From Chloroflexota bacterium (GTDB lineage Bacteria; Chloroflexota; UBA11872): a stretch of 64,000 nt of DNA. The translations under genes were made by a program, and so were the position numbers. Positions 21,559 to 45,634 of this stretch are shown in pieces; the stretch's first letter is position 1, and each line of letters opens with the position of its first letter. The stretch spans positions 1-64,000 of the forward strand of contig JAPOVQ010000003.1 of NCBI GenBank assembly GCA_026708035.1, written 5' to 3'. The notes beneath the pieces were generated by a model, which saw only the letters and a list, made by a program, of their open reading frames with translations, searched no databases and had not been told where the DNA came from.

Positions 21559-21628
21559 GCATGGGGCACGATCCAAACCGGGCGTGAAATGCGCCCGCGA
21601 TCCGCCTAGCACGCGCATGGAGCACTGC

Positions 21629-22471
21629 ATGGCACGCGCCGCCGCCCTGCTCAGCCCTTCCTGGGCGCGGCGCGTTTGGAGCGCCGTTCGAGAGCTCGCG
21701 GACTATACGGACCTGTTGCGCAACCTCGTGGTTCGCGACCTCAAAGTGCGCTATCGCGGTTCGATTTTCGGCTTCGGCTGGTCACTGCTCAATCCGCTTC
21801 TGATGATGGCCGTGTTCACCCTCGTGTTCCAGGTGTTGGCGCAATACGACGAAATCCATCTCTACCCATTCTTCCTCATGGCGGCGCTCGTGCCCTGGCT
21901 GTTCACGGCGCAGGCGCTCACCTCCGCCATGCGCAGCATTACGAGCAACGCGCAGCTCATCAAGAAGGTCTACTTTCCGCGTGAATTGCTGCCAATGAGT
22001 GCCGTGCTTGCCAGCTTTGTCAACTTTGTGTTGGCGTTCTTCATATTCTGGATCATTGGTCTGTTTTTCGGCGTCGGTACGACTCGCGCCATGCTCATGA
22101 TTCCGTTGATCATGCTGTTGCAGCTTGCGCTGGTCATGGGTCTCAGTTTGATTCTGGCGATGGCCAACGTGTTCTTCCGGGATACGGAGCACCTGGTCGA
22201 AGTTGGATTGCTGGCGTGGTTCTTTCTCACGCCTATTTTCTATCCCATTTCGTTTGTTCCCAACGTCACCTTTCTCGGGCTCGACGTGCACCGGTGGGTC
22301 TTCATGCTCAATCCCATGGCCACGCTGACGACCGACTACCGCTTCGCCATCATGTTTGGGTCCTTCCCCATCCGCCACACGATCGCCACCGTTGTCGTCG
22401 CAGCAGTGGCGCTCGGCTTCGGCTGGTGGGTGTTTCGACGCTACGGCCACCGCTTCGCCGAGGAGCTGTAG
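21629..22471 (+). CDS. ABC-2 type polysaccharide exporter permease (Wzm-like)
   Basis: About 280 residues with six predicted membrane helices. The N-terminal amphipathic segment contains LRNLVVRDLKVRYRGS, and FGFGWSLLNPLLMM opens the first helix; both are hallmarks of the O-antigen/teichoic-acid exporter permeases. Two in-frame ATGs exist, at 21617 and 21629; the second has GGAG at good spacing and is preferred. Followed 6 bases later by its ATPase. Together they move a lipid-linked glycan across the cytoplasmic membrane. This is the first gene of the plus-strand glycan locus and reads less GC-rich than its neighbours. Confidence 0.9.
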   Translation: MARAAALLSPSWARRVWSAVRELADYTDLLRNLVVRDLKVRYRGSIFGFGWSLLNPLLMMAVFTLVFQVLAQYDEIHLYPFFLMAALVPWLFTAQALTSAMRSITSNAQLIKKVYFPRELLPMSAVLASFVNFVLAFFIFWIIGLFFGVGTTRAMLMIPLIMLLQLALVMGLSLILAMANVFFRDTEHLVEVGLLAWFFLTPIFYPISFVPNVTFLGLDVHRWVFMLNPMATLTTDYRFAIMFGSFPIRHTIATVVVAAVALGFGWWVFRRYGHRFAEEL

Positions 22472-22477
22472 CGCGTC

Positions 22478-24193
22478 GTGCCGGACCACTCACCGCCCGC
22501 CATCGAGCTGCGCGACATCCGCAAGCGGTTTGTCATTCGCCACGAGGCGGCCCGCACCTTTCAGGGAATGGCGCTGGCTCTGCTTGGACGGCGCCCCATG
22601 GAGCATGAGGAGTTCTGGGCGCTCGACGGCGTGAACCTTGCCGTGGCGCCCGGCGAGACGTTGGGGATCATCGGGCCGAACGGGTCGGGCAAGAGCACCA
22701 TCCTGAAGCTGCTCGCCGGAACGATCCAGCCCACGGAGGGTCAGGTCACCGCGCGCGGTCGGGTGTTCGGACTGCTCGAGCTGGGAGCCGGCATGCATCC
22801 GGACCTCACCGGGCGCGAGAACGTATTTCTCAACGGATCGTTTCTGGGCCTCAACCGACGCGCGATTCAGGGGATGTATGACGACATCGTGGCGTTTGCG
22901 GAGCTCGAGCAATTCATCGATACGCCGGTCAAGCACTACTCGTCCGGCATGTTCATGCGGCTGGGCTTCGCCATCGCCATCCACGTGGATCCGGAGATCC
23001 TGCTGATCGACGAGGTCCTGGCCGTGGGCGACGCGCACTTCGCGGCCAAGTGCTACGCGGCCTTGGCCCGCGTGAAGCGCCGCGGCCGCACGATGGTGCT
23101 GGTCTCGCACGATCCCATCCAGGTGCGCCGGTTCTGCGACCGCGTGGTCTGGCTGGATCGGGGCAAGGTGCGCCAGGCCGGCGATCCCCACCAGGTCATT
23201 CAGGACTACGTCCAGCACATGCAGGGCGACGCACCCCCAGGCGATGCGGCAGCGGTGCAGCGCGACGCGGACGGTCCCACCGACCTCAGAATTCGGGCGG
23301 CGGTGCTGCGGGAGAGCGCGACCGGACCCGAGCAATACACCGTGCTCCCGGGCGACACGGTCACCGTGGCCGCCGAGCTGGAGGCCGAGACGCACCTGAC
23401 CGACGTGATTGTCGGCTGCGCGCTGCACCGCAGCGACGGGTTGCTGGTCGCCGAGTCAAGCACGGAGACCACCATCGGCCCGCTGGAGGTGCCGCCGGGC
23501 CGCACCATCGTCACCTGCCGTCTCGGGCCGGTGCCGGTCGGCGTCGGCGCCTACAACATTTCGCTTCGCGCCTGGCCAGAGCTCAAACGCCACCAGCCAT
23601 ACCATCGGTGGGACAACGCCCTGACGTTCTTCGTGGGCAAGTTCGCCGGCTATCAGCGGGGCGCGGTCGTCGTTCCCGCCCAATGGCGCGCCCGCGTCTC
23701 GCGCGATCATCCGCCGCTGGAGCGCGGCGACGCCCCGGTTGCCCAGCCGGACATGATCAGCGAGTCGCCGCGCCAGATCTGGCGTCATCCGCCCGCCGAG
23801 CTCCGCCTTGGCGACGGCGATGACGACTGGCTCGGCGAGGGCTGGCACCCGGCCGAGGAGTGGCCGCCTCGCCTCCGCTGGACCACGGATCGCGCGGTGG
23901 CCTATATCACCCAATCCGTGGGCCAGGGCACGTTGCGGATGTCGGTGTGCCGGCCGTTTCACGACATCGACGGCGCAGGCGTCCAGATTCGTCTCAATGG
24001 ACGGCACGTGGCGACGTTCACGGTGCGGCACATGGACTTCGAGGACGTGATCGTGCCGCTGGATCCGGTGACCGAGCCCACGACGTTGCAGCTCGAAATC
24101 GTCGTCGAGGAGCCGCTCGTGCCCGCGGCGGTGGGCGTTGAGGACGACACCCGCGTCCTGGGGCTGGCCGTGCGCACGATCAGCGTGGAATGA
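22478..24193 (+). CDS. Polysaccharide exporter ATPase (Wzt-like) with an extra C-terminal beta-sandwich module
   Basis: 571 residues, longer than a usual Wzt (about 400-450). Residues 1-245 are an ABC ATPase with Walker A GPNGSGKST (66-74), signature YSSGM (154-158) and Walker B ending in D178-E179. Residues about 265-395 are a Wzt_C-like carbohydrate-binding domain that would select the finished glycan. Residues about 452-571 form a further beta-rich module opening with GWHP and RWTTDRAV and ending DDTRVLGLAV. The same pattern recurs inside the two downstream glycosyltransferases. The GTG start lies 6 bases after the permease. The next gene overlaps by 4 bases (ATGA). Confidence 0.88.
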   Translation: MPDHSPPAIELRDIRKRFVIRHEAARTFQGMALALLGRRPMEHEEFWALDGVNLAVAPGETLGIIGPNGSGKSTILKLLAGTIQPTEGQVTARGRVFGLLELGAGMHPDLTGRENVFLNGSFLGLNRRAIQGMYDDIVAFAELEQFIDTPVKHYSSGMFMRLGFAIAIHVDPEILLIDEVLAVGDAHFAAKCYAALARVKRRGRTMVLVSHDPIQVRRFCDRVVWLDRGKVRQAGDPHQVIQDYVQHMQGDAPPGDAAAVQRDADGPTDLRIRAAVLRESATGPEQYTVLPGDTVTVAAELEAETHLTDVIVGCALHRSDGLLVAESSTETTIGPLEVPPGRTIVTCRLGPVPVGVGAYNISLRAWPELKRHQPYHRWDNALTFFVGKFAGYQRGAVVVPAQWRARVSRDHPPLERGDAPVAQPDMISESPRQIWRHPPAELRLGDGDDDWLGEGWHPAEEWPPRLRWTTDRAVAYITQSVGQGTLRMSVCRPFHDIDGAGVQIRLNGRHVATFTVRHMDFEDVIVPLDPVTEPTTLQLEIVVEEPLVPAAVGVEDDTRVLGLAVRTISVE

Positions 24194-25596
24194 CCGGCGC
24201 CATTGCCGCCGAGACGCCGCGACCGGTTGGTGGAATCGGCACCGGCCTACCCCATGTCCACGTGGTCGTGCTCACCTACAACCCCGGCGCGTTCATCGAC
24301 CGATGCCTGAGTTCCGTGCTGGACACGGACTATCCGGCCTTCGACGTCACCGTCGTCGACAACGACTCCACCGATGGGTCCGTGCGCAATCTGCGCCGGG
24401 ACTTTCCGGGGGTCGCGCTGGTGGAGGCCGGGGCGAACCTCGGCTTTTCGCGCGGCAACAACCTGGCCATGCGCGAGGCGACCGCCCCGTTTATCGCCCT
24501 GCTCAATCCCGATACGGAGGTCGATCCGGACTGGCTGCGGCCCTTGGTCGAGCGGCTGTGCTCGGACCCGGTGGCGGGAGGCGCCGCGCCGAAGATTCTG
24601 TACCTGCACGACCGCGTTCCCGTGGACCTGCGCGCGCCGACCTTCGTGCCCGGCGGCGGCGACACGCGGGAGCTCGGCGTGCGCCTGTATGAGAGTGCGG
24701 GCGAAGCCGCCCCGGCCGTCGTCAACCAGGGGGCCTATGGACCCGAGACCGACCACGAGGGGGCCACGTTTCGCTGGATCGGCGCCTCGGCGACGCTGGC
24801 CGTTCCCGTGGTCGACGGCAAGGCCCGGATCGCGCTCGACGTCGCCGCCGGCCCCGGACGCGACAACCTGGAGCTCGCGGTATCGGTCGGCGGCGGCGAG
24901 CTTGCCGCACTGCGCGTTGCGCCTGAGCGCACCCGCTTCGAACGTGGCATCCCCGAGGATGCGGTCCGTGAATTCGCACGCCCGGTGATTGAGAACGCCG
25001 GCATCAAGCCGCTACCCGACGGCTCCATGCGCGATCGCGGCACCTTCGTGACCCACGGCAACGTGTGGCAAGCGTGGGACGGACCGGACTTCGCCGCGCC
25101 CCGCGAGGTGTTCGCCGTCAAGGGCGGGGCGGCGCTCTATCGGCGTTCGATGCTCGAAGCGCTGGACTTCTTCGATCCCGGCATCTTCATGTACTACGAA
25201 GACGCGGACCTTGCCTGGCGCGCGCGCCGCCGCGGCTGGCGCTTCTGGTACGAGCCGGCGTCGGTGGTCCGCCATGCCCACGCGGCGTCCAGCCGCGAAT
25301 GGTCCCCCTCGTTCATCCGCAATGTCGAGTTCGGCAAGCTGCGCATGTTGGCGAAGAACGCGTCCTGGGGCTGCGCCGGCCACCACGCGGCGCTGGCGGC
25401 GGTCCAGGGCAGGCGTGAGATTCGCCGCGGGCTGGCCGCGGGCGACGCGGAGGCGCTGGCGCGGGGACGCGCCCGGGCTTCGGCGCTGAACGCGGCGCTG
25501 CGGGCCATGCCGTCTACGCTGCGGCTGCGGCGCACCGAAGCGCGGCTGGGGCCGTTGGACGCGCGCGAGCTGCCCCCCTTCTTCGAGCCCGAGTGA
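24190..25596 (+). CDS. GT2 family glycosyltransferase with an inserted beta-sandwich module
   Basis: 468 residues. The GT-A fold starts with VVVLTYNPGAFID, the nucleotide-sugar Asp-Asp-Asn region VDNDSTDGSV, and NPDTEVDPDWL carrying the DxD-like metal site. After residue about 183 the fold is interrupted by about 100 residues of beta-rich sequence (GATFRWIG, then ALDVAAGPGRDNLELAVSVGGGE). It then resumes with GGAALYRRSML, FMYYEDADL and WRFWYEPA, the acceptor part. The insert resembles the modules of the neighbouring ABC ATPase and GT4 gene. The enzyme would transfer a sugar, perhaps rhamnose, to a lipid-linked glycan; the donor is not evident. Overlaps both neighbours by 4 bases. Confidence 0.85.
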   Translation: MTGAIAAETPRPVGGIGTGLPHVHVVVLTYNPGAFIDRCLSSVLDTDYPAFDVTVVDNDSTDGSVRNLRRDFPGVALVEAGANLGFSRGNNLAMREATAPFIALLNPDTEVDPDWLRPLVERLCSDPVAGGAAPKILYLHDRVPVDLRAPTFVPGGGDTRELGVRLYESAGEAAPAVVNQGAYGPETDHEGATFRWIGASATLAVPVVDGKARIALDVAAGPGRDNLELAVSVGGGELAALRVAPERTRFERGIPEDAVREFARPVIENAGIKPLPDGSMRDRGTFVTHGNVWQAWDGPDFAAPREVFAVKGGAALYRRSMLEALDFFDPGIFMYYEDADLAWRARRRGWRFWYEPASVVRHAHAASSREWSPSFIRNVEFGKLRMLAKNASWGCAGHHAALAAVQGRREIRRGLAAGDAEALARGRARASALNAALRAMPSTLRLRRTEARLGPLDARELPPFFEPE

Positions 25597-27182
25597 AAGC
25601 CGCCGTCTACAACCGCTGGCTGCATCAGCGCGGCGGCGGCGAGCGCCACGCCGCCATGGCGGCCGCCGTATTGGCCCAGCGCTTCGACGACACGCGCCTG
25701 GTGACGCATCGCGGCATTGCTCGCGAAGACCTGGAATCCTCGCTCAACCTCGATCTGTCGAACGTGCAGATCGAGGTCATCCCGGCGCTGCCGCCAAACC
25801 GATTCGCCGAGTACACCTCGCAGTTCGACCTCTTCGTGAACGCCTCGTTCATGACCTCGCAGCCGTCCGCGGCGCGCCGCAGCCTGATGCTGGTGCTCTT
25901 CCCGTCGCCGATCGAGCGCGGTTGGACCGCGCGCCTGCGGCGAAAGGTCGGGGAGATGCTGATTCGGCAGCTGCTCCTGCCGGAGTGGCTGGACGGCTTC
26001 TACGACGTGCATCCGCTGGGCCGCGGTTGGTTCAGGTACACCACGGATCGTGCGGTGGTGCGCCTCCCCTGGCCGCCGGGCCGCACGGCGGCGAACGTCG
26101 AAGTCATCGCCGGCAACTTTCGCCGCGACGAGCCGCTGCCGGTCCGGTGCCTGGTCGACGGCCACGTGCTCGCCGAGCGCACGTTCGAGCCGCGCCCGGG
26201 CGAGTTCGAGCGCTGGCCGCTGCGCATCGATAGATCACGTGGGGCGAAGGACCCACTCGAGCTCACGCTCGAATCGCCGGTGTTCAACCCCGCCGATACC
26301 CTGGACGAGGCGGACAACCGCGAGGTGGGCCTGGCGGTCACCGACGTGCGCGTGCGGAGCCCGCGCCGGCTGCTCTACGAGCTGCTGTTCCGCCGCCTCC
26401 TGCCGGAAGCGGGCATCCGGCTGGAGGGACTGTCGACCTATGGGTCGCTCGACTTCCTGGACGCTTACGATCTCATCGCGCCCATTTCCGAGTTCAGCCG
26501 CCGTTGGATGCGCCACTACTGGGACCGCGACGGTCCATTGCTCTTCCCACCGGTTGACACGTCGTGGGCGACGCCCAGGCGCCGTCGTCACTCTATTCTG
26601 GGGGTGGGCCGGTTCTTTCGCGGCACGCACGAGAAGAAGCACCGGGTGATGATCGACCAGTTCATTCGCATGCGGCGCGAGGGCCTTGACGGCTGGACGC
26701 TGCACCTGGCCGGGCAGCAGAGTGAGCGCGATATCGACCTTGACTACACCCGTGACCTCAAGCGCCGCGCCGCGGGGCATCCCATCGAGTTCCACGTCGA
26801 CGCGCCGTTCGCCGACCTGCAACGGTTGTACGGTGAAGCGCAGGTCTATTGGCATGCCGCCGGCCACGGGGAGCGCGAGTCGCGCCATCCGGTGAGATTC
26901 GAGCACTTCGGCATCACGGTGGTGGAGGCCATGGCGAGCGGCGCGGTTCCGGTGGTGCTCGACCGAGGGGGACTGCCTGAAATCATCAGCCACGGCCTGG
27001 ACGGATTTCGCTGGTCGACGACTCGCGAGCTGCGCGACCACACGTGGCGGCTCGTGCATGACGCGGAACTGCGCCGCCGTATGTCCGAGGCCGCCCAGGC
27101 CGCGAGCCAGCGATTCAATGTCGCCGCCTTCGCTCAGCGTCTACATGCACTGGTTGATGAGCTTGGATTTCCCGCCGCGTAG
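25593..27182 (+). CDS. GT4 family glycosyltransferase with an inserted beta-sandwich module
   Basis: 529 residues, over 100 more than a normal GT4. The N-terminal Rossmann domain carries the nucleotide-independent start of the family. Residues about 143-255 are an inserted module beginning GWFRYTTDRAVVRLP and ending NREVGLAVTDVRV. It closely follows the pattern of the C-terminal module of the exporter ATPase. The C-terminal GT-B half keeps GVGRFF, a HEKKHR segment, the acidic EHFGITVVEAMASG active-site motif and the following GGLPEI. It would use a nucleotide sugar to extend the glycan. The GTG start overlaps the GT2 stop by 4 bases and the membrane protein begins 7 bases after the stop, so the set is one operon. 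Confidence 0.85.
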   Translation: MKAAVYNRWLHQRGGGERHAAMAAAVLAQRFDDTRLVTHRGIAREDLESSLNLDLSNVQIEVIPALPPNRFAEYTSQFDLFVNASFMTSQPSAARRSLMLVLFPSPIERGWTARLRRKVGEMLIRQLLLPEWLDGFYDVHPLGRGWFRYTTDRAVVRLPWPPGRTAANVEVIAGNFRRDEPLPVRCLVDGHVLAERTFEPRPGEFERWPLRIDRSRGAKDPLELTLESPVFNPADTLDEADNREVGLAVTDVRVRSPRRLLYELLFRRLLPEAGIRLEGLSTYGSLDFLDAYDLIAPISEFSRRWMRHYWDRDGPLLFPPVDTSWATPRRRRHSILGVGRFFRGTHEKKHRVMIDQFIRMRREGLDGWTLHLAGQQSERDIDLDYTRDLKRRAAGHPIEFHVDAPFADLQRLYGEAQVYWHAAGHGERESRHPVRFEHFGITVVEAMASGAVPVVLDRGGLPEIISHGLDGFRWSTTRELRDHTWRLVHDAELRRRMSEAAQAASQRFNVAAFAQRLHALVDELGFPAA

Positions 27183-27188
27183 CGAGCG

Positions 27189-29468
27189 ATGCGCGCCACG
27201 TCTCGGTTCGGCGCGCGGCTGATGCGACTGCACGTGCCGGGTTGGATCGTGCGGCGTCCGGCGCTTGTGCTGTTTGTGCTCGCCGCCAGTGTCTATCTGC
27301 TCACCGCCGGCGTGAGTCGCAACGGCGTCGGCTACAGCGCCGACGGGACGTTTGCCTTTGAGATGGCCAAGAGCGTGGTGGTCGACCCCGATCAGAAATA
27401 TCTGCGGGAGCACGGCGGCAATTTCTCACGCTGGGGCGTGGGCTTGCCGCTGGCCCTGATACCGGTGGTTGCCGCCGCCGAGCCGTTCGCGCAAATCGCG
27501 CCGCAGCGCGATCGGCTCCCCATCCATGGCGGCGAGCACGAAATGCTGTTGGTCAACTACGCGCCGCTCGGCGGAATGCCGCAGCCCAACAGCACCAGAG
27601 TCCTCGAGCTTGGCCTGAAACCCGGACGCTATGACCGGTTGTCGCTGCTCACCCACGCGGGCTTGAGCGCCGACTTTGCCCAGGGCCTTCAAGTGGCCAG
27701 CCTCGTCCTCACCGCGACCGACGGGACCGAGATCGTGCGGCCGATTCGCGTGGGCATCGAGACCGCGGAGTGGGCCTACGACCGCGGCGATGTCCGCGCC
27801 CGGATTCAGCATGAGCGTCCCCCGCCCGCCGGACGCCAGATCGGCAACGCGCGGGCGTATTACTACCTCGCGACCTGGGACCTTGCGGAGCCCATGGACC
27901 TGGCGTCCGCCCGACTGGAGTACCTTCAGCCGGACGGCAACCTCTACGTGGACGGGGTGGCCGCACGGCTGGTTGACGGCACGTGGGTTGACGGCCCGGG
28001 CATCGGCCGGCTGTGGTCCGAGCGGCAGACGGTCGACTTCTTCCGACGCATTTGGGTGCCGCTGGTCAATTCGCTGATCACCGCCTTCGGTGCGGTCGTC
28101 GTGTTCCGCATCGTGCGGCGCCTGGACTACGGCGCGGTCATCGCCCTGGCCATTGGACTCGTCTATGCGCTCGGCACGATGGCCTGGCCCTACGCGGTCG
28201 TCGACTTCGCGGAACCGTTGGTGACCCTGCTGGTGCTCGTGTGCGTCTGGCTGCTCTTGATTTACAACCAGACGCAGCTGCGGCGATACCTGCTGCTCGC
28301 CGGGACGGTGGCGCTGGCCGCGGCCGTGACCAAGTACGTCACCGTGATCGTCATGCCGCTGCTCGTGGCGGCGATCTTCCTGAGCCACAAGCCCGGACGC
28401 ACCTGGCGCCAGGCCGGGCGCGAAGGCTTCATGCCGACGCTGGCGTTCGCCGCGCCCATCATCGCCGTCGTGCCCGTGGGCCTGGTGGCAGCCGCCTTCC
28501 TGTTCGACGTGCGGCTGCTGTACGTCCACGAGCTGTGGGGCGGCATCAGCCGCGGGTGGCTGGGCCTCCCGATCGAGCTCGGAATGCACGGGCTGATCTC
28601 CAGTTGGGGCAAGGGTCTGCTCTGGTACAACCCGGTGCTGCTGGTGGCAATTCCCGCGATTCCCTGGTTCATCCGGCGCCACGGATGGCAGGCGTTCATT
28701 TTCGTGGCCATCCCGATCGGCTACCTGCTGCTCTACAGCAAGAAGGAAGTCTGGTACGGCGGCAACGCCTGGGGCCCGCGCTACCTCGTGCCCATCGTGC
28801 CGCTCCTCGTCATCATGGCCGCGCCGGCGATCGAGTGGCTGGCCCGCAAGGGACGCCGCGCGCTGCCGCGGGCGGCCTTCGCCGTCGTGCTCCTGGCCAG
28901 CCTGGGCGTGCAGATGATGGGTGTGAGCAAGGACTTTGGCTCCTACCTCGACCTTTATCAACAGCAGGTGGTTGGGGAGCTTCCGGAGAGCGGCGCCGTG
29001 TACGGCGGGGCGGCGTATCAGCCCTGGTCGGCCAAGCAGCCGGAGGGCGATTTCGTGGCCGTGCTCTACGCCCACCAGTTTTCCCCAATCCTGGCGCATG
29101 CCTGGCTGCTGCGCGCCGACGCGACGAACCTTTTTGCGCCGGATCGGACCGATATGCTTGAAGACGCGCTGGAGCGCTCGCCCTGGTCCCGCTTCGGGAT
29201 CGACGTGCGTCCGCCGCATCCCGAGAACGGGTTGGGCCTCGATTTCTGGTCGACCACGCTGACCGAGTACTACCTGGCCTATCCGGTGGTCCTGGCGCTG
29301 GCCGCCCTGGTTCTTGTGGCGCTGCAATTGATCTCTATTGGCGCGCTCGCCGCGGCGACCCACCAGCTCTGGCCGAACGGGCCCCATGCCGCGCGCTGGC
29401 GGCTCGCCGTCGTTGGCGTCTATGGAGCCCTCCTACTCGCTTTTGACACGCTCCACTTCATGCTCTAG
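27189..29468 (+). CDS. Large polytopic membrane protein, GT-C-like, with an extracytoplasmic beta domain
   Basis: 759 residues. A first helix (about 23-43) is followed by an outward loop containing YSADGTFAFEMAK with acidic residues as in GT-C enzymes. A beta-rich domain at about 100-280 is followed by about ten membrane helices at 290-605, a second beta or mixed loop at about 610-690, and two more helices to the C-terminus. GT-C enzymes of the family 39/83 type use polyprenyl-phosphate sugars outside the membrane. This could modify the exported glycan or a protein. The class is clear, the reaction is not; it might instead be a ligase or polymerase. Confidence 0.7.
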   Translation: MRATSRFGARLMRLHVPGWIVRRPALVLFVLAASVYLLTAGVSRNGVGYSADGTFAFEMAKSVVVDPDQKYLREHGGNFSRWGVGLPLALIPVVAAAEPFAQIAPQRDRLPIHGGEHEMLLVNYAPLGGMPQPNSTRVLELGLKPGRYDRLSLLTHAGLSADFAQGLQVASLVLTATDGTEIVRPIRVGIETAEWAYDRGDVRARIQHERPPPAGRQIGNARAYYYLATWDLAEPMDLASARLEYLQPDGNLYVDGVAARLVDGTWVDGPGIGRLWSERQTVDFFRRIWVPLVNSLITAFGAVVVFRIVRRLDYGAVIALAIGLVYALGTMAWPYAVVDFAEPLVTLLVLVCVWLLLIYNQTQLRRYLLLAGTVALAAAVTKYVTVIVMPLLVAAIFLSHKPGRTWRQAGREGFMPTLAFAAPIIAVVPVGLVAAAFLFDVRLLYVHELWGGISRGWLGLPIELGMHGLISSWGKGLLWYNPVLLVAIPAIPWFIRRHGWQAFIFVAIPIGYLLLYSKKEVWYGGNAWGPRYLVPIVPLLVIMAAPAIEWLARKGRRALPRAAFAVVLLASLGVQMMGVSKDFGSYLDLYQQQVVGELPESGAVYGGAAYQPWSAKQPEGDFVAVLYAHQFSPILAHAWLLRADATNLFAPDRTDMLEDALERSPWSRFGIDVRPPHPENGLGLDFWSTTLTEYYLAYPVVLALAALVLVALQLISIGALAAATHQLWPNGPHAARWRLAVVGVYGALLLAFDTLHFML

Positions 29469-29488
29469 CGTCGAATCGAGGCAACGTG

Positions 29489-29710
29489 ATGTCCGACTCC
29501 TCAAACGCCGACCTGATCCCCGCGGACTTCCTCGCTATTCTGCGCTGCGTGAACGACGCGCACCCGCGCGATGACGGGGTGTTGCGCATTGTCGGCAAGA
29601 CGCTGGTGTGCACGGTGTGCGGCTACGCCTACACCGTTGAGGACGGCATCCCCAACATGCTTTGGGACGAAGCGATTCCGCCGTCCGAATCAGCTCCGGC
29701 GAGCCCGTGA
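29489..29710 (+). CDS. Trm112-like small zinc-ribbon protein
   Basis: 73 residues. LAILRCVNDAHP supplies one cysteine, and CTVCGYAYTVEDGIPNML supplies the CxxC and the characteristic terminal segment of the Trm112/YcaR (UPF0434) family. The pattern is that of a small zinc-ribbon that stabilises methyltransferases or other enzymes. I prefer the ATG at 29489, which has GAGG eight bases upstream, to the adjacent GTG. The stop overlaps the GTG of the radical SAM gene (GTGA), so the two proteins may be partners. Such proteins are often seen next to glycan or tRNA-modification genes. Confidence 0.8.
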   Translation: MSDSSNADLIPADFLAILRCVNDAHPRDDGVLRIVGKTLVCTVCGYAYTVEDGIPNMLWDEAIPPSESAPASP

Positions 29711-30795
29711 ACTCGGTTACGCAGGCCAAGGATCTCGTCCTCAAATTTCGCCGCCACAAGGCGGTGGCGCACCCGGGCCTGGCACGCTTCGCCTACCACT
29801 GGATGCGCGGCACCAGCGAGTTGCCCTACGGCCCGCTGAAGATGCACGTGGAGCCCACCAGCTTCTGCAACCTGCGCTGTCCCATGTGCCCGCAGAGCGT
29901 CGGGGCCAACTCGACCAACGGGTTCATGGAGATGGACCTGTTCAACAAGATCATCGACGAGGCCCGCCACTTCACCCGCGAGATCAATCTGTTCTTCCGC
30001 GGCGAATCCCTGATGCACAAGGGCATCTACGAGATGATCGAGACCTGCGAGCGCGCCGGAATCGCGGCCCACATCAACACCAACGCCACGCTGTGGCGCG
30101 ACGACGCCATCGCCAATCTGCTCGAAGCCCGGCCCTCGAAGGTGACCATCAGCTTCGATTCCGGCGAACCCGAGACCTACGAGGCGATGCGCAAGGGCGC
30201 CACCTTCGATCGCGTGCTGGAGCGCGTCCTGCGGTTTCTCGAGGCCCGCAAGCGACTCCCCGGCCCGAAGCCTTACGTCGTCATGCAAGTGATCCAGCTT
30301 TGGGAGAAGTCGATGGGCATCGGCGCCCGCCCGGTGATCCCGGCTCATTTCACGGATCGCTTCGCCGGCTTGCCGGTCGACGAGTGGGACACCTTCTGGG
30401 CTCACGGATGGGCGGGCACGCTGACCGACTCCGACTTCTACACGGCGCGCCCCCACGGTCCCGTCTACTACCCCTGCAACTGGCTGTGGAAGTCCATGGC
30501 GGTCTACTGGGACGGCCGAGTGCCGTCGTGCTGCGCCGACTTCGCCGAAGAGCAAATCATGGGCGACCTCAGCACGCAGTCGATCCAGGAGGTCTGGAAC
30601 AGCGACGCCTATCGGGCCATCCGCGAGGCGCACACCGGGGGACAGTTGGCCGACTATCCGCTGTGCGCCGGCTGCGACGCCAAGTGGCAGGAAGACACCC
30701 CGCTCTGGCGGGCATTTGCCGGCGCCCGATCGGTCGCCACCACCGAGCCGCTGCCCGTATTGCAGAACGGTCGCGCGAACGGCCACGCCGGATAG
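29707..30795 (+). CDS. Radical SAM protein with SPASM-like C-terminus
   Basis: 362 residues from the GTG that overlaps the Trm112-like stop by 4 bases. The radical SAM cluster motif CNLRCPMC is near residue 50. The C-terminal region contains a YYPCNW cysteine, SCCAD, and a final CAGC pair, the cysteine arrangement of SPASM/twitch auxiliary-cluster proteins. The middle is a TIM-like barrel with INLFFRGE and FDSGEPETYEA. Enzymes of this group modify peptides, sugars or lipids. Given its place inside the glycan operon, a sugar-modifying step is the best guess, without direct proof. Confidence 0.82.
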   Translation: MNSVTQAKDLVLKFRRHKAVAHPGLARFAYHWMRGTSELPYGPLKMHVEPTSFCNLRCPMCPQSVGANSTNGFMEMDLFNKIIDEARHFTREINLFFRGESLMHKGIYEMIETCERAGIAAHINTNATLWRDDAIANLLEARPSKVTISFDSGEPETYEAMRKGATFDRVLERVLRFLEARKRLPGPKPYVVMQVIQLWEKSMGIGARPVIPAHFTDRFAGLPVDEWDTFWAHGWAGTLTDSDFYTARPHGPVYYPCNWLWKSMAVYWDGRVPSCCADFAEEQIMGDLSTQSIQEVWNSDAYRAIREAHTGGQLADYPLCAGCDAKWQEDTPLWRAFAGARSVATTEPLPVLQNGRANGHAG

Positions 30796-31018: not shown

Positions 31019-32191
31019 ATGCGCCTAACGCTGGTGTCGAACATATTTCCGCCCGCCGTCGGCGGCCCCGCCACGCACGTGTATCACCTGGCCGAGTCGC
31101 TGCATCAGCGCGGCCACACGGTGCGCGTGATCGCCGGTACCGACGATCCCGAGGGCGCGGTCAAGGTTCCCTATCCCCTCGTGCGGGTGTCGTGGAGCAT
31201 GCCGGTGCCGATCCGCTATCTCCGAGTCATGTGGCACACCTGGCGCGCGGCGTTGCAGTCCGACGTGGTGTACATCAACGGCATCGAGCTCCCCGCCAGC
31301 CTCGGGGCGCTGCTGGCCGGCCGCCCGCGCGTGCTCAAGGTGGTGGGCGACTGGGCGTGGGAGTCGGCGATCCGCCGGGGGCTGACGACGCTGGGCATCG
31401 AGCCGTTCCAGACCGGCGCGCACGGCCTGAAGACTCGCGTATTCCGAGCCATCCAACGGTTCTACTGCCGCCTCGCCAGCGTGGTCGTCGTCCCCAGCGC
31501 CTACGTGGGTTCCCTGGTCGCGGGGTGGGGCGTCGATGCGCGCAAGACGCAGGTTATCCAGAACGCGCTCACCAGCACGCCGCGTCCCAGCGAGGAGCCG
31601 GAGGCGGTGCGCCAGGCCCTGGGCCTACAAACCCCCGTGGTCTGCAACGTTTCGCGGCTCTACGCCTGGAAGCACGTGGACGCGCTGATTCGCATGGTGG
31701 CGCGGTTCGATCACGGCGCCGCCTTGCTCATCGTCGGCGGCGGTCCGGAGCAGTCCCGGCTGGAGCAATTGACGCGGGAGGTTGGGGTCGCCGAGCGGGT
31801 GGTCTTCACCGGCGACGTGCCCCACGACCAAGTGGCGACCTACCTGCGGGCATCCCAGATATGCGTCCTCAACACGCAGTATGAGGGTCTCTCGCACACG
31901 TTGGTGGAGGCCCGCCACGTGGGAACGCCGATCGTGACGACCGACATTGGGGGCAACCGCGAGATTCTGCGCCACGAGCACTCCGCGGTGCTGGTGCCGT
32001 TCGGCGATGAGGACGCCTTCGTGCACGCCGTGAACGACCTGCTCGCCGACCCGGCCCACGGCGCGCGGTTGGCCCGCGCCGCGCAGACCGGGCTGGAGCA
32101 CTTTCGCTGGGACCGGCTGGTGGACCAGACGCTTGAGGTGCTGCACGACGCCATCGACCGCCGGCCGGGAGCCGCCCGCGCCGTCGCATGA
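31019..32191 (+). CDS. GT4 family glycosyltransferase
   Basis: 390 residues of GT-B fold. The N-terminus MRLTLVSNIFPPAVGGPATHV is the glycine-rich acceptor/donor loop of the family. The C-terminal donor domain carries NVSRLYAWKHVD, VGGGPEQSRL and the EX7E-type catalytic pair in YEGLSHTLVEARHVGTP. It should add one sugar from a nucleotide donor to a growing lipid-linked glycan in the cytoplasm. The ATG start is preceded by a short gap after the repeat region, so a local promoter is possible. The stop overlaps the next GT4 gene by 4 bases. Confidence 0.9.
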   Translation: MRLTLVSNIFPPAVGGPATHVYHLAESLHQRGHTVRVIAGTDDPEGAVKVPYPLVRVSWSMPVPIRYLRVMWHTWRAALQSDVVYINGIELPASLGALLAGRPRVLKVVGDWAWESAIRRGLTTLGIEPFQTGAHGLKTRVFRAIQRFYCRLASVVVVPSAYVGSLVAGWGVDARKTQVIQNALTSTPRPSEEPEAVRQALGLQTPVVCNVSRLYAWKHVDALIRMVARFDHGAALLIVGGGPEQSRLEQLTREVGVAERVVFTGDVPHDQVATYLRASQICVLNTQYEGLSHTLVEARHVGTPIVTTDIGGNREILRHEHSAVLVPFGDEDAFVHAVNDLLADPAHGARLARAAQTGLEHFRWDRLVDQTLEVLHDAIDRRPGAARAVA

Positions 32192-33318
32192 AACCCAGCC
32201 TGCTGATGCTCAGCGGCGATCGCGACGTAGCGGCGGGGCGGCGAGGTCCGTTCTACTACACGCTCGAAGGACTGTCGCGGGAGTTCGATCGAATCGACGT
32301 GCTGACGCCGAACGTTCGCCTGGCCCAACCGCGCACGGTCCATCGCGGCGTGCACGTCCATCCGTCGCCGGGCGGGCGGCTCTGGCACGCGCGTTGGCTG
32401 ATCCGCCGGGCGCGAGCCCTGGCCGCCGAGCGGCGCTACCAACTGATCGTGAGCCACGACTACGGCATATTTTCAAACGGCATCGCCGCCGCGCGTCTGA
32501 GCGGGCGGATTGGCGTGCCCTACGTCAGCGAAATTCACCACGTCCCGGCGCACCCGCGGCGTGCGCAGTGGTGGGAGTCGGCGGCCAAGCTCGGATATCG
32601 AGCGTACGTCGGATTCGCGGCCTCACGCGCGCGCGCTATCCGCGTGGTCAACCGCCAACAGGTGCCCGAGTTGCTGCGACGGTGGGGCGTGCCGTCAGCG
32701 AAGATCCTGGTGCTGCCATCGGCGCACGTTGACCGCGAGGTGTTTCGTCCAGGCGACGAGCCACGGCCCTATGCGCTGGGCTTCGTGGGGCGTCTGGTCG
32801 CCAACAAGGGCCTGGACTATCTGGTCGAGATCTTCGCCACCGTGGCGGCTGACGCGCCCGAATCGCGCTTCGTTGTCGTGGGCGACGGTCCTGGAGCCAA
32901 CGCCTTGCAGCGCCGCCTTTCGGCGGCGGGAATCGAAGGTCAGGTCGACCGCATTGCCTGGGTTGACGGTCCGGACGATCTGGCGGCGCTCTACCGGCAG
33001 ATGGAAGCCCTGGCATGCACCTCGCGCAGCGAGGGCGGACCGCGCGTGTGCCTGGAGGCCATGGCCTGCGGCACGCCGGTGTTCAGCACGCCGGTGGGCC
33101 TGATGCCCGAGATCATCGACCACGGCGTGAACGGCTGGCTCTTGCCGTGGGAGGCGAAGGCCGGCGGCGATCTGGTCACGCAAGTGCGTGGCTCACCCGA
33201 AGCCCTGGCCGGCGCCGGTACCGCAGCGCGGCGGGCAACCGCGCCCTTCACTCGGGAGCGGATCCTCGGCGCCTACGCCCGGGCCTATCGCGACCTGGCG
33301 GCGGAGTCGCTGCCGTGA
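32188..33318 (+). CDS. GT4 family glycosyltransferase
   Basis: 376 residues. The C-terminal domain shows GFVGRLVANKGLDYLVEIF, a VVGDGPG loop, and SRSEGGPRVCLEAMACGTPV with the family glutamates. The N-terminal half is shorter and has HDYGIFSNGIAAA in the acceptor region. The ATG lies in the last codons of the previous GT4 gene and its stop overlaps the next by 4 bases, so three GT4 enzymes are made as one coupled set. The donor sugar cannot be read from the sequence. Confidence 0.9.
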   Translation: MKPSLLMLSGDRDVAAGRRGPFYYTLEGLSREFDRIDVLTPNVRLAQPRTVHRGVHVHPSPGGRLWHARWLIRRARALAAERRYQLIVSHDYGIFSNGIAAARLSGRIGVPYVSEIHHVPAHPRRAQWWESAAKLGYRAYVGFAASRARAIRVVNRQQVPELLRRWGVPSAKILVLPSAHVDREVFRPGDEPRPYALGFVGRLVANKGLDYLVEIFATVAADAPESRFVVVGDGPGANALQRRLSAAGIEGQVDRIAWVDGPDDLAALYRQMEALACTSRSEGGPRVCLEAMACGTPVFSTPVGLMPEIIDHGVNGWLLPWEAKAGGDLVTQVRGSPEALAGAGTAARRATAPFTRERILGAYARAYRDLAAESLP

Positions 33319-34460
33319 GCGAGACCGGGCGCGGGCTGCGGCTGCTGATGATCACGCAGGAACTTTCGACCGACAGCTCCATCCTGGGTTTCGCCCATCT
33401 CTGGGCGGGCGAGCTCGCCGGGCTCGTCGACCAGGTGCACGTCATTGCCGCCTCGACGGGCGCGGTGGATTTGCCGCCCAACGTCACCGTGCATGGGCTG
33501 GGCAAGGAGCGAGGGCGTGGGCGCGCGTCCCGCTGGCCGCTGCTGCTTGGCCGGTGCCTGCAGTTGATCGGCGGAGGTCGCGTGGACGGTGTGCTGGCGC
33601 ACATGGTCCCGGCCTACGCCGTCGCCGCCGCCCCCTGGTGCATCGCGCGTCGGACCCCCCTCGTGCTTTGGTACGCCAGCCACGGCCTCACGCGAACGCT
33701 GCGCGCCGGCGTGAAACTGTCCAGCGCGACCATCACCTCGGCTCCGGAGAGCTACCCGCTGCCATCGCCGAGCGCATTCATCGTGGGACAGGGCATCGAT
33801 ACGGCCCGGCTCGCGGCAATGCCGATCCGGCCGGCGCCGCCGGCGCGGCCCGTCATCGGCGTCGCCGGGCGGATCACGCCGCTCAAGGGGCTGACCACGG
33901 TGATCGAGGCCGTCGCACGACTCCGCGACGACGGCCTGCCGGTCGAGCTGCGCGTCGCCGGCGAGCCGTTCTATCCCTCGGATCACGCCTACCTGGCCGA
34001 GGTTCACGAGCGCGTGCGTCAGGCGGAGCTCACGGAGCACGTCACGTTCTTGGGCGGGCTGCCCAGCACGGCCATGCCGGAGTTTTACGCCGGCCTCGAT
34101 GCCTTCGTCGCCTGGCGCAGCGGAACTTCCCTCGACAAGACGGGATTGGAAGCGCTCGCCGCCGGCACGTTGCTCGTCACGAACAACGTCGTCTATCGCG
34201 CGGCGCTTGGCGAATTCGCGGGCGACTTTCTCCTCGAGTCATCGCCGGAAGACCTGGCGGATGGCCTGCGACGGGCGCTGGCGCTTCAACCAAGCCAGCG
34301 CACGGCCACGATCGAGCAACTCAGGCAAACGGTGATCGAGAACCACGCCGCGAGCGGCCTGGCGGGTCGACTCGTGAAGGTGTTCACGGCCTTGCGCGAG
34401 GGCCGGGAGCCGCCGTTTACGCGCACCGCGACCGCCGCGAAGGTGGGCGAGGGTGTCTAG
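33315..34460 (+). CDS. GT4-like glycosyltransferase with an altered EX7E motif
   Basis: 381 residues. The GTG start overlaps the previous stop. The donor domain has GVAGRITPLKGLTTVIEAV and FLGGLPSTAMPEFYAGLDAF, typical GT4 features. The first glutamate of the EX7E motif is replaced (GTSLDKTGLEALAAG, Thr in that position). That is a variant seen in some GT4 subfamilies, so activity may persist. The next gene begins 8 bases before its stop. Role as for the neighbouring transferases. Confidence 0.82.
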   Translation: MSETGRGLRLLMITQELSTDSSILGFAHLWAGELAGLVDQVHVIAASTGAVDLPPNVTVHGLGKERGRGRASRWPLLLGRCLQLIGGGRVDGVLAHMVPAYAVAAAPWCIARRTPLVLWYASHGLTRTLRAGVKLSSATITSAPESYPLPSPSAFIVGQGIDTARLAAMPIRPAPPARPVIGVAGRITPLKGLTTVIEAVARLRDDGLPVELRVAGEPFYPSDHAYLAEVHERVRQAELTEHVTFLGGLPSTAMPEFYAGLDAFVAWRSGTSLDKTGLEALAAGTLLVTNNVVYRAALGEFAGDFLLESSPEDLADGLRRALALQPSQRTATIEQLRQTVIENHAASGLAGRLVKVFTALREGREPPFTRTATAAKVGEGV

Positions 34461-36209: not shown

Positions 36210-37406
36210 GTGCGTCTGATCTTCCTCGCCAATGCGCGAATTCCCAGCGAAAAGGCCCACCCGCTGCAGATCATGCACATGGCCGAGGCGTTCGCGGCGC
36301 AGGGCCTGGAAGTCCTGTTGCTGCATGCGCGCCGCGCCAACATGGACGCCATGCAGCGCGTCAAAGACCCCTTTGCCTACTTCGGCGTCGAGCGCGCGTT
36401 CGGGCTCATCGGCCTGCCCTGCATCGATCTGATCAAGCGCGTTACGGTCGATTGGCCCGCACTCAGCCGCCGACCCATCCCGCTTCTGGCTCACCTGATC
36501 CAGCTCGCGACGTTCACGCTCAGCGCGCTGGTGCTCATGCGGCGACTTCGCGGCGACGTGGTCTACAGCCGCGACCTGTTTCCGCTGACGCTGACGACGC
36601 TGCGCCGCGGCGCCGGCGTGCGCACTTGCTTCGAATGCCACACGCTGCCGCGGTCGGCGCCGTCGCAGCGTTTGCACCTGTGGGCCGCGCGCCGGGTAGA
36701 CCGGATCGTGGTCATTTCGTCCGCGCTGCGACGGTGGTACCTGGAACGCGGTCTGCCGCCCGAGCGCGTGCTCGTGGCGCACGACGCGGCCCCCGCCGCC
36801 GCATTCGACCTCGAGCCGCGGGCCACGGCGCGCCAGGCGCTCAATCTCGCACCGGACGCGCCGCTCGTCTGCTACGTGGGCCACCTCTACGCCTGGAAGG
36901 GCGTCGACACGCTCATTGCGGCCACGGCGAAGCTGCCCGAGTCCGTGCAGGTTGCCATCGTCGGGGGCGTGCCGCCGGACCTCGACCGGGTGCGCCGGCT
37001 TGCCGGCACCAGGCGCAACGTGCGGACCACGGGCCATCGCCCGCCGGCCGAGGCGAGGCGCTACCTTGCCGCGGCCGACGTGGCGGTGATCCCCTTCAGC
37101 GGCCGAACGCTCATCGCGCGCGAGCACACCTCGCCGCTGAAGATGTTCGAGTACATGGCGGCCGGCGTTCCCATCGTGGCCAGCGATCTGCCGTCGCTGC
37201 GCGAGGTGCTGCGCCACGAGCACAACGCGCTGCTCGTGCCTGCCGACGATAATGCGGCGCTCGCCGCCGCCATCGAGCGCCTGTTGAGCGACCATGAGCT
37301 CGCCGCCCGCCTGGCGCGCACGGCTCGGAATGAGGTAGCGGACTGCACGTGGAATCGACGCGCGGCCAGGATCGTGGAGTTCCTCGACCTGCCGCAGCCG
37401 GCCTGA
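36210..37406 (+). CDS. GT4 family glycosyltransferase
   Basis: 398 residues. The GTG at 36210 follows GAGG at normal spacing. The N-terminus RLIFLANARIPSEKAHPLQIMHMAEAF is of the type found in WbuB/PimC-like GT4 enzymes. The donor domain has CYVGHLYAWKGVDTLI and HTSPLKMFEYMAAGVPIVASD, the subfamily form of the catalytic region. It should add a sugar to the cytoplasmic glycan precursor. Its 3' end overlaps the YfhO-like gene by 58 bases if the GTG start of the latter is correct. Confidence 0.88.
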   Translation: MRLIFLANARIPSEKAHPLQIMHMAEAFAAQGLEVLLLHARRANMDAMQRVKDPFAYFGVERAFGLIGLPCIDLIKRVTVDWPALSRRPIPLLAHLIQLATFTLSALVLMRRLRGDVVYSRDLFPLTLTTLRRGAGVRTCFECHTLPRSAPSQRLHLWAARRVDRIVVISSALRRWYLERGLPPERVLVAHDAAPAAAFDLEPRATARQALNLAPDAPLVCYVGHLYAWKGVDTLIAATAKLPESVQVAIVGGVPPDLDRVRRLAGTRRNVRTTGHRPPAEARRYLAAADVAVIPFSGRTLIAREHTSPLKMFEYMAAGVPIVASDLPSLREVLRHEHNALLVPADDNAALAAAIERLLSDHELAARLARTARNEVADCTWNRRAARIVEFLDLPQPA

Positions 37407-39961
37407 CGCGCGCCGCCGCCCGGCTGGGGCGAGCGGCCGAGCGCCTGGAGCACGCCGGCGCCGGCCGGCACCGGCTGCTGGTGGCTATCGGACTGCTCGC
37501 GCCGCTTCTCATCCTGTACCGCGGCGTGCTGTTTGCGGGCGAGGCCTGGCTCGATTTTGACCTGCTCTTGACCTTCCAGCCGCGATACCGCCTGCTGGCG
37601 GCTGGCCTCGCGGAGGGCCGGATTCCGTTGTGGATGGACGGCGTCCTCGGCGGATTCCCCGTGGCGTTTTCCGAGTTTGGCTGGTTCTATCCACTGACCT
37701 GGGGCCTGCTGCGCGTCTTCGAACCGCTAAGGGCCTATTTCATCGAGACATCGCTTGGCCTGATGCTGGCGGCGGCCTCGGCCTATGGCCTGGGTCGCGT
37801 GTGGGGCCTGTCGCGGCGCGGGGCGTTTCTCGCTGCTTTCCTCTACGCCTATAGCCCATTCGTGTTTGCGACGGCCCGCCTCCTCAACTGGGCCGACATC
37901 TTTTTTGTACTGCCCGCCGGTCTGCTGGCCATCGAACGCATTGCGCAGGGACGCCGGGCGTGGGCCGTCGGGCTCGCGGTCATCACCGGCATCGCGGGCC
38001 TCGGGGGATCGCCGCAGATTGCCCTGCTCTTCGTCTCGGTTTGGCTGGTGTATGCCCTGTTTCGTCTCACCTGGACGTGGTGCGAGGCCGGGCGGGCGCC
38101 CGCGTTCGAAGTTGGCGCTTGGCTGCTCGCGTCCGTCGTCCTGGGCCTGGCCCTGGGCGCCGTGCGATTTCTGCCGACCATTGAAACCACCGCGCTTTCC
38201 GGGCGCGCGGGGGGGCTGGAATACACCGCAGCGGCCGCCGGCTCGATCCCGCCCTGGAACCTGGTGCTCGGCTACCTCTACCCGTCGTTCGAGTTTCCGC
38301 GCGTGCTCGACGAGACGCTCAACGCCGAAGAGCTGCTCTATCTCGGGATTCTCACGCCCGTGCTCACTCTGCTCGCGCTGGTGGCCGCGCGCCGGCACCG
38401 CGTCGTGCGATTCCTCGCCGTGCTCGTCGTCGTCGCCTGGGTGCTGGCCATGGGCGCCTACAGCCTTGGGTTTCCGCTGCTGCACAAGCTGCCGTTGTTC
38501 AGCTTCTTCCGCGACCCCTCGCGGTTCGGGATTCCGGCGACGTTCGGCCTGGCCTTCCTCGCGGCCTTCGGCTTCGAGCTGCTGCCCCGGCCCGACCTGG
38601 CGGCCGCGCGGGCGGTTGGCTGGCTGGTGCGCGCCTGGACCTGGCTGGCCGGCCTCATCGCCGGAGGCACCCTGGCCGCCACGATTACGCTCACCGGCTT
38701 CGCCTTCTTGATCGTGCCCTATGGCTACGACTACATCGACCGCGTGATCGTCGGGTCCGAGGGCCGCTTTCTGACCGCCGAGCGCTACTACCGCACCTTC
38801 GACCAGCTGTACGCGCGGCTCGAATCGGCGTTCAGCCTGGCGGGGTCCACGCCTCGACTGGTGCTGGTGACCGCGGTGCTCGGCGCGTTGCTGATCTGGG
38901 CGTATCGACGCGGCGCGCTGCGGGGCGTGCACGCGCAAATCGGCGTTGGCGCCGTGCTCGCGGTCGACCTGCTGCTGGCGCCCGGCCACGTCATTCCCAC
39001 GGTGCCGGCCGAGTGGTACGACCGTCCCTCGCCGCTGCTAGCCGTTTCCGCCGACGATCGCGACGGACGGTTCTTTTCCTATCGCGCCCAGGCCCAGAAG
39101 TTCGAGCTGTCGACGGCGACCGGCGATCGCCTGTTGCGCGATCAGCGCGACCTGCTGGAGTGGGTGTTTCTCACCGCCACTCGCGCCCCGAATCTGGCGC
39201 TGGACGGCGGGCCAAGGACGATTGACGGCTACGAAAACCTGATGCCACGCAGCACGGCGGAGTTTCTGGCGTTTGTCGGCAGCGAACGCGCCATCGTGCC
39301 CGGCTTCGCCAGCGACGCCTCGCTCGACGCCGCCGCACGCCTCGACATCCTGGAGTCCCGTCTGGGCGCTCTCGCCGCGGCTAACGTCCGGTACATCACG
39401 TCGGGGGTGCCGCTGCCGATTGAGGGACTGCGCGAAGTGCATGCGGGCACGGTCCCGCTGCCCGATTGGGCCGGCGTGGAGCAGCCGCTGTACGTCTATG
39501 AGATCGACAACTGGCGCCCCGAGGCCTGGATCGCGCGACGCTGGTCCGTCGTCGACGATCCCGAGTCCATGCTGGAACAGCTCGCGGAGCGACCCGAGCA
39601 CGCGTTTGTGTCGCGTGACCCCGGCATCGATCCGGGGCAAGACTCGAGCCGGTCCGACGTCATCGGCCCCATCGCCCGCGGCCCGGAGCGCATCGACCTC
39701 AGCGTCGATCTGGCCGCGCCGGGCCTGCTGGTGCTCAACCACGCACCGAATCCCGGCTGGAGCGCCGAGGTGAACGGCCGTCCGGCGGAAATCTTGACCG
39801 TCAACCTTGTGGCGCGCGGTCTCGCGCTCCCGGCGGGCGCGCACGAGATCAGCATGCGGTTCGAGCCGCCGGGGTTTGCGGCGGGCGTGGTCGCGTCGCT
39901 GGTTGCCACGGGTCTGTTGGCGCCGCTGCTGGCGTTGAGCGTTTGGAGGCAGCGGCGGTGA
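37349..39961 (+). CDS. YfhO-like polytopic membrane protein
   Basis: 870 residues with about a dozen membrane helices (first at about 46-62). The outward loop DFDLLLTFQPRYRLLAAGL with GRIPLWMDGVLGGFPV is the YfhO/GT-C pattern of acidic residues and glycines. The C-terminal region is a large extracytoplasmic part ending in a beta domain (NHAPNPGWSAEVNG, LPAGAHEISMRF) and a last helix. YfhO-like proteins add sugars to teichoic acids or other glycans from polyprenyl-phosphate donors. The GTG at 37349 overlaps the GT4 gene and has a distant GAGG; a CTG at 37403, overlapping the upstream stop by 4 bases, is the alternative. Confidence 0.8.
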   Translation: MESTRGQDRGVPRPAAAGLTRAAARLGRAAERLEHAGAGRHRLLVAIGLLAPLLILYRGVLFAGEAWLDFDLLLTFQPRYRLLAAGLAEGRIPLWMDGVLGGFPVAFSEFGWFYPLTWGLLRVFEPLRAYFIETSLGLMLAAASAYGLGRVWGLSRRGAFLAAFLYAYSPFVFATARLLNWADIFFVLPAGLLAIERIAQGRRAWAVGLAVITGIAGLGGSPQIALLFVSVWLVYALFRLTWTWCEAGRAPAFEVGAWLLASVVLGLALGAVRFLPTIETTALSGRAGGLEYTAAAAGSIPPWNLVLGYLYPSFEFPRVLDETLNAEELLYLGILTPVLTLLALVAARRHRVVRFLAVLVVVAWVLAMGAYSLGFPLLHKLPLFSFFRDPSRFGIPATFGLAFLAAFGFELLPRPDLAAARAVGWLVRAWTWLAGLIAGGTLAATITLTGFAFLIVPYGYDYIDRVIVGSEGRFLTAERYYRTFDQLYARLESAFSLAGSTPRLVLVTAVLGALLIWAYRRGALRGVHAQIGVGAVLAVDLLLAPGHVIPTVPAEWYDRPSPLLAVSADDRDGRFFSYRAQAQKFELSTATGDRLLRDQRDLLEWVFLTATRAPNLALDGGPRTIDGYENLMPRSTAEFLAFVGSERAIVPGFASDASLDAAARLDILESRLGALAAANVRYITSGVPLPIEGLREVHAGTVPLPDWAGVEQPLYVYEIDNWRPEAWIARRWSVVDDPESMLEQLAERPEHAFVSRDPGIDPGQDSSRSDVIGPIARGPERIDLSVDLAAPGLLVLNHAPNPGWSAEVNGRPAEILTVNLVARGLALPAGAHEISMRFEPPGFAAGVVASLVATGLLAPLLALSVWRQRR

Positions 39962-41088: not shown

Positions 41089-41089
41089 C

Positions 41090-45633: not shown

Positions 45634-45634
45634 C

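Follow-up and report, generated by a model that had tools for sequence, protein, structure and literature searches.

In a Chloroflexota genome, a small Trm112-like protein and a radical SAM/SPASM enzyme are encoded by overlapping genes within a polysaccharide cluster, and the arrangement recurs among related genomes. We propose that the two proteins form a functional pair, in which a radical SAM sugar modifier acting on an exported glycan is served by a dedicated, translationally coupled Trm112-like accessory protein; we regard this proposal as evenly poised. The genes, their predicted folds, the invariant cluster cysteines, the overlap, the glycan setting and the recurrence are observed; that the two proteins bind each other, that the small one stabilises the enzyme, and what reaction takes place on what substrate are inferred. 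The evidence comes from the stretch of 64,000 nucleotides analysed here (the window) and from comparisons with related loci across the phylum.

The overlapping genes and their glycan cluster

The source genome amounts to 3.46 Mb in 36 contigs, and the window has a G+C content of 69%. The first gene (29489..29710, plus strand) extends from an ATG at 29489 to a TGA at 29710 and encodes a Trm112/UPF0434-like protein of 73 amino acids (aa), an assignment drawn from PF03966, alignment, predicted fold and purifying selection. The second gene (29707..30795, plus strand) begins with a GTG at 29707, ends with a TAG at 30795 and encodes a 362-aa radical SAM/SPASM enzyme assigned to a twitch-type, BtrN-like class on the grounds given below. 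Two further plus-strand features can be read from the sequence: a Shine-Dalgarno-like GAGG (29478..29481) located 7 nt 5' of the small gene's ATG, and a GTGA stop/start overlap of 4 bases (29707..29710) that suggests translational coupling of the two genes. The initial annotation had described exactly this four-base overlap, and the coordinates of both genes agree with it to the base. It had also read the overlap as the sign of a 1:1 relation, which within the source genome is supported because neither Pfam family has a second match there: a genome-wide Pfam scan returned the 73-aa gene as the sole match to PF03966 (Trm112p), and the 362-aa enzyme is likewise the single match of its own family.

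The pair lies within a plus-strand glycan cluster (21584-46750) delineated by Pfam scans and profile matches, in keeping with the glycan operon first described for it. A Wzm-like polysaccharide ABC exporter permease (21584..22471) and a Wzt-like ABC exporter ATPase with a Wzt C-terminal domain (22478..24193) are followed by a GT2 glycosyltransferase (24190..25596), a second glycosyltransferase (Glycos_transf_1; 25593..27182) and, immediately before the pair, a 759-aa GT-C-like membrane protein with weak DUF2079/PMT_2 matches (27189..29468). Next after the pair comes a GT4 glycosyltransferase (31019..32191), then two further GT4-type glycosyltransferases (32188..33318 and 33303..34460), and the rest of the cluster (36210..46750) encodes glycosyltransferases, a YfhO-type membrane protein and a flippase, all of these genes again on the plus strand. 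The GT-C gene before the pair is kept in families f1 and f2 and has a 34% relative in the f38 cluster, and the GT4 gene adjoins the enzyme gene in f3, f4, f38 and, with the exception of genome G018, f1. The cluster proteins scanned, a subset of the ORFs of the window, include none with a methyltransferase domain, so that no classical Trm112 partner is encoded locally among them and a local methyltransferase partner was ruled out to that extent; no aminocyclitol genes were recognised among them either. Two other features of the cluster are recorded here in their own right: a 581-aa protein (34453-36198) that has no Pfam match at E 0.1 and has relatives in most f1 loci, and a predicted tRNA-Ala (GGC) at 45176-45246, between glycosyltransferase genes.

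Identities of the two proteins

The enzyme scores 69.6 bits against Radical_SAM (PF04055; cut-off 29.5) and 57.9 bits against SPASM (PF13186; cut-off 21.5). When the window enzyme was aligned with those of 22 of the 25 close-relative loci (alignment A1, 23 sequences; L054, L075 and L077 excluded), a CX3CX2C motif (C54, C58 and C61) and five later cysteines (257, 275, 276, 320 and 323) proved invariant in 23/23. These later cysteines are enough for one auxiliary cluster, as predicted from sequence, and enzymes with one such cluster are termed 'twitch' enzymes, examples being BtrN and MoaA (PMC9012708, in the part available). The predicted structure of the enzyme (pLDDT 79.6) retrieved BtrN first both by Foldseek and by VIA-align, the latter aligning it with 4m7t at Z 18.7 and rmsd 3.1 over 231 residues, with ~22% identity over the aligned part; SkfB and DesII fell within 1 Z unit of BtrN, SuiB and BlsE were close behind, and BtrN was also the first match in a profile search with the enzyme. 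By its cysteines, its SPASM score and its predicted fold, the enzyme fits a twitch-type, BtrN-like class, with putative cluster binding. Among the best 25 NCBIfam matches listed, the enzyme reached no cut-off. The model for the tungsten cofactor oxidoreductase maturase (TIGR04317) gave the window enzyme 103.1 bits, short of its equivalog cut-off of 380, and is matched by all 23 aligned enzymes at E<=1e-20. An N-terminal segment, residues ~12-27, is specific to this branch and is mostly missing from the distant relatives aligned; no residues other than columns of the C-terminal tail separate 8 paired from 3 unpaired enzymes.

The small protein lies at the border of recognition by Trm112p (PF03966), its 21.8 bits (E 1.8e-4) falling just short of the curated cut-off of 22. 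When the whole genome was scanned it exceeded this cut-off with 22 bits, and it matched the NCBIfam archaeal Trm112 model at E 1.6e-7, far under that model's cut-off. Applied to the genes adjoining the enzyme in relatives, PF03966 scored those of f2 and f38 clearly over cut-off and those of f3 at the borderline. The predicted model is of moderate confidence (pLDDT 74.5) and matches 2pk7 (Z 6.1), chain H of 6zxw (Z 5.2, rmsd 1.8), 6f5z, 2kpi and 3q87, the top of the PDB lists being mostly Trm112/UPF0434, which supports a predicted Trm112 zinc-knuckle fold. Foldseek E-values for this model were weak (best 0.097), as they commonly are when a chain is this short. Given the match of its predicted fold to Trm112/UPF0434 structures and the PF03966 scores of the f2 neighbours, which lie well above cut-off, the protein is best described as a putative diverged Trm112. 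Judged from its codons, the reading frame is a real gene under purifying selection, with dN/dS against the window copy of 0.11-0.17 in three of three within-genus comparisons.

Across 21 aligned small proteins (alignment A2: the window plus 20 of the 25 close-relative loci), with divergence down to 34% identity, I54, P55, M57 and L58 are invariant in 21/21; both ends of the protein vary, the IPxML strand is kept, and Cys20 is the only invariant cysteine. The window protein carries C20 and C41xxC44 as its only cysteines and does not match the Trm112 zinc ligands as given for an archaeal subfamily ([C/D]PX[C/D]..CX2C; PMC5372719, in the part available). The small proteins contain two cysteines in f2, one in f5 and four in f3, f38 and genome G030, and the CxxC motif is missing from the f2 and f5 sequences in the alignment. 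As a separate observation, eight loci of f3 and f4 genomes (L079, L080 and L082-L087) encode stand-alone Trm112 proteins of ~130-160 aa, in which a hydrophobic stretch at the N-terminus resembles a membrane anchor.

Recurrence of the pair and alternative readings

A genome contig search placed the close relatives of the enzyme at 25 loci, all in Chloroflexota metagenome assemblies. Within the GTDB family, both genes are present in 18 of 19 genomes, G001 having neither; the upstream GT-C gene is missing from G001 as well, so the joint loss is uninformative as support for pairing. The enzyme is found in 32 of 41 genomes at the class level and, at E<=1e-25, in at least 42 of 400 genomes of the phylum, a count that may be low since at most five candidates were scored per genome. 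Thirty-four of the enzyme matches, with identities of 49-100%, belong to a single group, and a profile check detected a Trm112-like gene adjoining the enzyme in 29 of them: 25 with the same four-base overlap, two in which it precedes the enzyme gene at a distance of 70 or 115 nt, and two in which it lies downstream. Of the other five, two are no more than 125 nt away from the end of their contig, and three (G026, G028 and G034, all f4) have no adjacent Trm112 gene despite several kilobases of upstream DNA; Trm112 genes are present elsewhere in these f4 genomes. The pair is thus not confined to the window, a restriction that the initial annotation had said would refute the link: families f1, f2, f3 and f38 retain it, as do one f4 member and, in reversed order, f5. 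Chance overlap is ruled out by the recurrence of a Trm112-like neighbour in 29/34 relatives, and the four-base overlap persists to ~50% enzyme identity while other neighbours change. The 29 cases are related and therefore represent perhaps five or six lineages. One family member, locus L058 of G018, has the pair at a gap of 70 nt and no GT4 gene downstream in the sequence available.

A tree of 29 of the 34 family members and 6 distant relatives (G009, G013, both G010 copies and the partial G016 excluded) recovers the family members as one well-supported clade, in which f3 and f4 branch close to the base, the order of the deep forks being poorly resolved. From the basal position of f3 and f4, the pairing was probably ancestral and was unlinked later in f4. 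More distant relatives of the enzyme, at ~24-34% identity, include several whose loci are polysaccharide-type clusters, with neighbours such as a perosamine synthetase gene or heptose genes, and no Trm112 neighbour was annotated or detected beside them in the loci read; this enzyme type is therefore probably a glycan enzyme whose Trm112 link is specific to one branch. Plasmids yielded 9 records with relatives at 24-29% identity, and the 3 of these that were inspected have no Trm112 neighbour annotated in the plasmid gene table, which is incomplete; a plasmid search with P0001 returned one haloarchaeal Trm112, and viral contigs yielded two distant enzyme relatives at 22-25% identity. In loci L123 and L124 (G113 and G067), two distant enzyme relatives stand in tandem with one gene between them, which in L124 is class I methyltransferase-like. 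The pairing was seen in Chloroflexota only. Among the matches listed, comparison by eye showed no SPASM protein outside this enzyme family paired with Trm112, and a general Trm112-SPASM association was rejected to that extent. Nor is the adjacency a general habit of Trm112, since no member of this enzyme family neighbours any of the 30 top-scoring Trm112 loci found elsewhere in the phylum. The link of a Trm112-like protein to a radical SAM enzyme, proposed at the outset as new, matched no paper found in the literature searched (subscription journals lay mostly outside it).

The f5 loci keep the Trm112 neighbour without the glycan setting and so argue, more strongly than any other single observation, that the enzyme goes with Trm112 and not with the glycan genes. 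Here the enzyme adjoins RuvB-like and membrane-protease-like genes (recognised by eye), and the Trm112 gene, of another subtype with a long insert, lies 45 nt downstream of it. In three f5 genomes the surroundings are similar and include the Trm112 gene but no SPASM protein, the genomes being too few to tell gain from loss; together with the three f4 relatives without an adjacent Trm112, they weaken the notion of a strict obligate pair. Loci L109-L113 (f5), similar neighbourhoods with and without a radical SAM gene beside Trm112, amount to a natural presence/absence case.

These same exceptions bear on whether the two genes are operon companions only, the Trm112-like protein serving a methyltransferase or another protein elsewhere and merely sharing a pathway with the enzyme, which we consider somewhat unlikely. 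Methyltransferases are the established partners of Trm112, and in bacteria some Trm112 domains form one polypeptide with them (PMC5372719, in the part available); f3 and f4 genomes encode proteins that, judged by eye, combine an N-terminal Trm112 part with a methyltransferase-like remainder. However, the cluster proteins scanned contain no methyltransferase domain, the tight overlap is found in 25/34 relatives, and the adjacency in f5 outlives the glycan genes.

A SPASM enzyme frequently acts on a small protein whose gene adjoins its own. With SkfB and SuiB among the structural matches, the small protein might accordingly be the substrate of the enzyme, a RiPP precursor as in sactipeptides, yet we judge this improbable: the neighbour is a predicted globular protein of Trm112-like fold, it has no conserved leader and variable core (its ends vary and its IPxML strand is kept), the enzyme has a single set of auxiliary cysteines, as does the small-molecule enzyme BtrN, and f5 pairs the enzyme with a different Trm112 subtype. 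A historical accident kept by descent is equally improbable; most of the 29 pairs do occur in related genomes and in one arrangement, but the overlap extends to ~50% enzyme identity among changing neighbours, and f5 differs in both gene order and Trm112 subtype. Finally, a metal or electron carrier for the iron-sulphur clusters, rubredoxin-like in its CxxCGY and weakly matched by rubredoxins at residues 37-56, is highly improbable with CxxC absent from f2 and f5 and only Cys20 invariant, and zinc or rubredoxin function as a general role was ruled out, the cysteines not being conserved.

A proposed mechanism and its relation to known systems

For the functional pair that we propose, the BtrN-like radical SAM enzyme would oxidise or otherwise modify a sugar during biosynthesis of the exported glycan, and the Trm112-like accessory protein would be made in step with it through translational coupling. 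By analogy with BtrN, a sugar hydroxyl would be oxidised with the auxiliary cluster as the electron acceptor. Of the sugar or lipid carrier initially suggested as the target of radical-based modification, the sugar fits the BtrN, BlsE and DesII folds and the glycan setting and is the putative substrate that we retain, whereas nothing points to a lipid carrier in particular. By analogy with Trm112-methyltransferase complexes, the small protein would bind the enzyme via the strand bearing its I-P-x-M-L motif and would keep the enzyme soluble or aid binding of SAM or substrate. Enzyme residues ~12-27 are a weak candidate for the contact, since unpaired f4 enzymes keep this segment. For the methyltransferases themselves, the C-terminal strand of Trm112 pairs with the enzyme and Trm112 stimulates SAM binding by HEMK2 (PMC5372719, in the part available).

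Trm112 acting with methyltransferases (Trm9, Trm11, Mtq2 and Bud23; the archaeal Trm11-Trm112 complex, 6zxw) shares with the present pair the predicted fold, the IPxML strand region and a SAM-using partner, putative here; in contrast, the putative partner here is a radical SAM barrel enzyme and not a class I methyltransferase, and the zinc ligands are not conserved. Several radical SAM enzymes of the SPASM type, PqqE with PqqD among them, have a small dedicated partner encoded nearby, as in the present case, but PqqD-type helpers differ from Trm112 in fold and bind the peptide substrate. BlsE and DesII, which are among the next-best structures at 15-18% identity to the enzyme here, act on nucleotide-linked sugars. 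BtrN (2-deoxy-scyllo-inosamine dehydrogenase, 4m7t), the top match by structure and by profile, has the cysteines of one auxiliary cluster; the enzyme here is longer, 362 aa versus 270 in the PDB chain, with an identity that stays low over the aligned part, and its gene belongs to a cluster for glycan export, whereas that of BtrN belongs to one for an antibiotic. The available part of PMC9012708 mentions no accessory protein of BtrN. Members of the bacterial UPF0434/YcaR family (2pk7, 2jr6 and 2kpi) resemble the small protein in size class and predicted fold, but their function is described as unknown (PMC5372719, in the part available), whereas the gene here is coupled to a radical SAM gene.

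According to the same 2017 review (PMC5372719, in the part available), the function of bacterial Trm112 is unknown and its partners are still to be clarified, for which reason the pair described here offers a concrete and testable partner. A conserved, coupled partner that is no methyltransferase would, if true, give bacterial Trm112 a testable role, and the enzyme represents an uncharacterised BtrN-like family in Chloroflexota glycan clusters. If binding is real, this would be a new kind of Trm112 partner, although not a categorically new one, because both components belong to known families. The pairing suggests, without proving, that Trm112-like proteins are able to assist radical enzymes as well. 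We advance only tentatively, and at less than even confidence, the broader view that Trm112-like proteins are general small activators of SAM-using enzymes and that in Chloroflexota one of them was recruited as a subunit by a sugar-modifying radical SAM enzyme, with its zinc site lost; if true, Trm112-type activation would extend from methyl transfer to radical chemistry.
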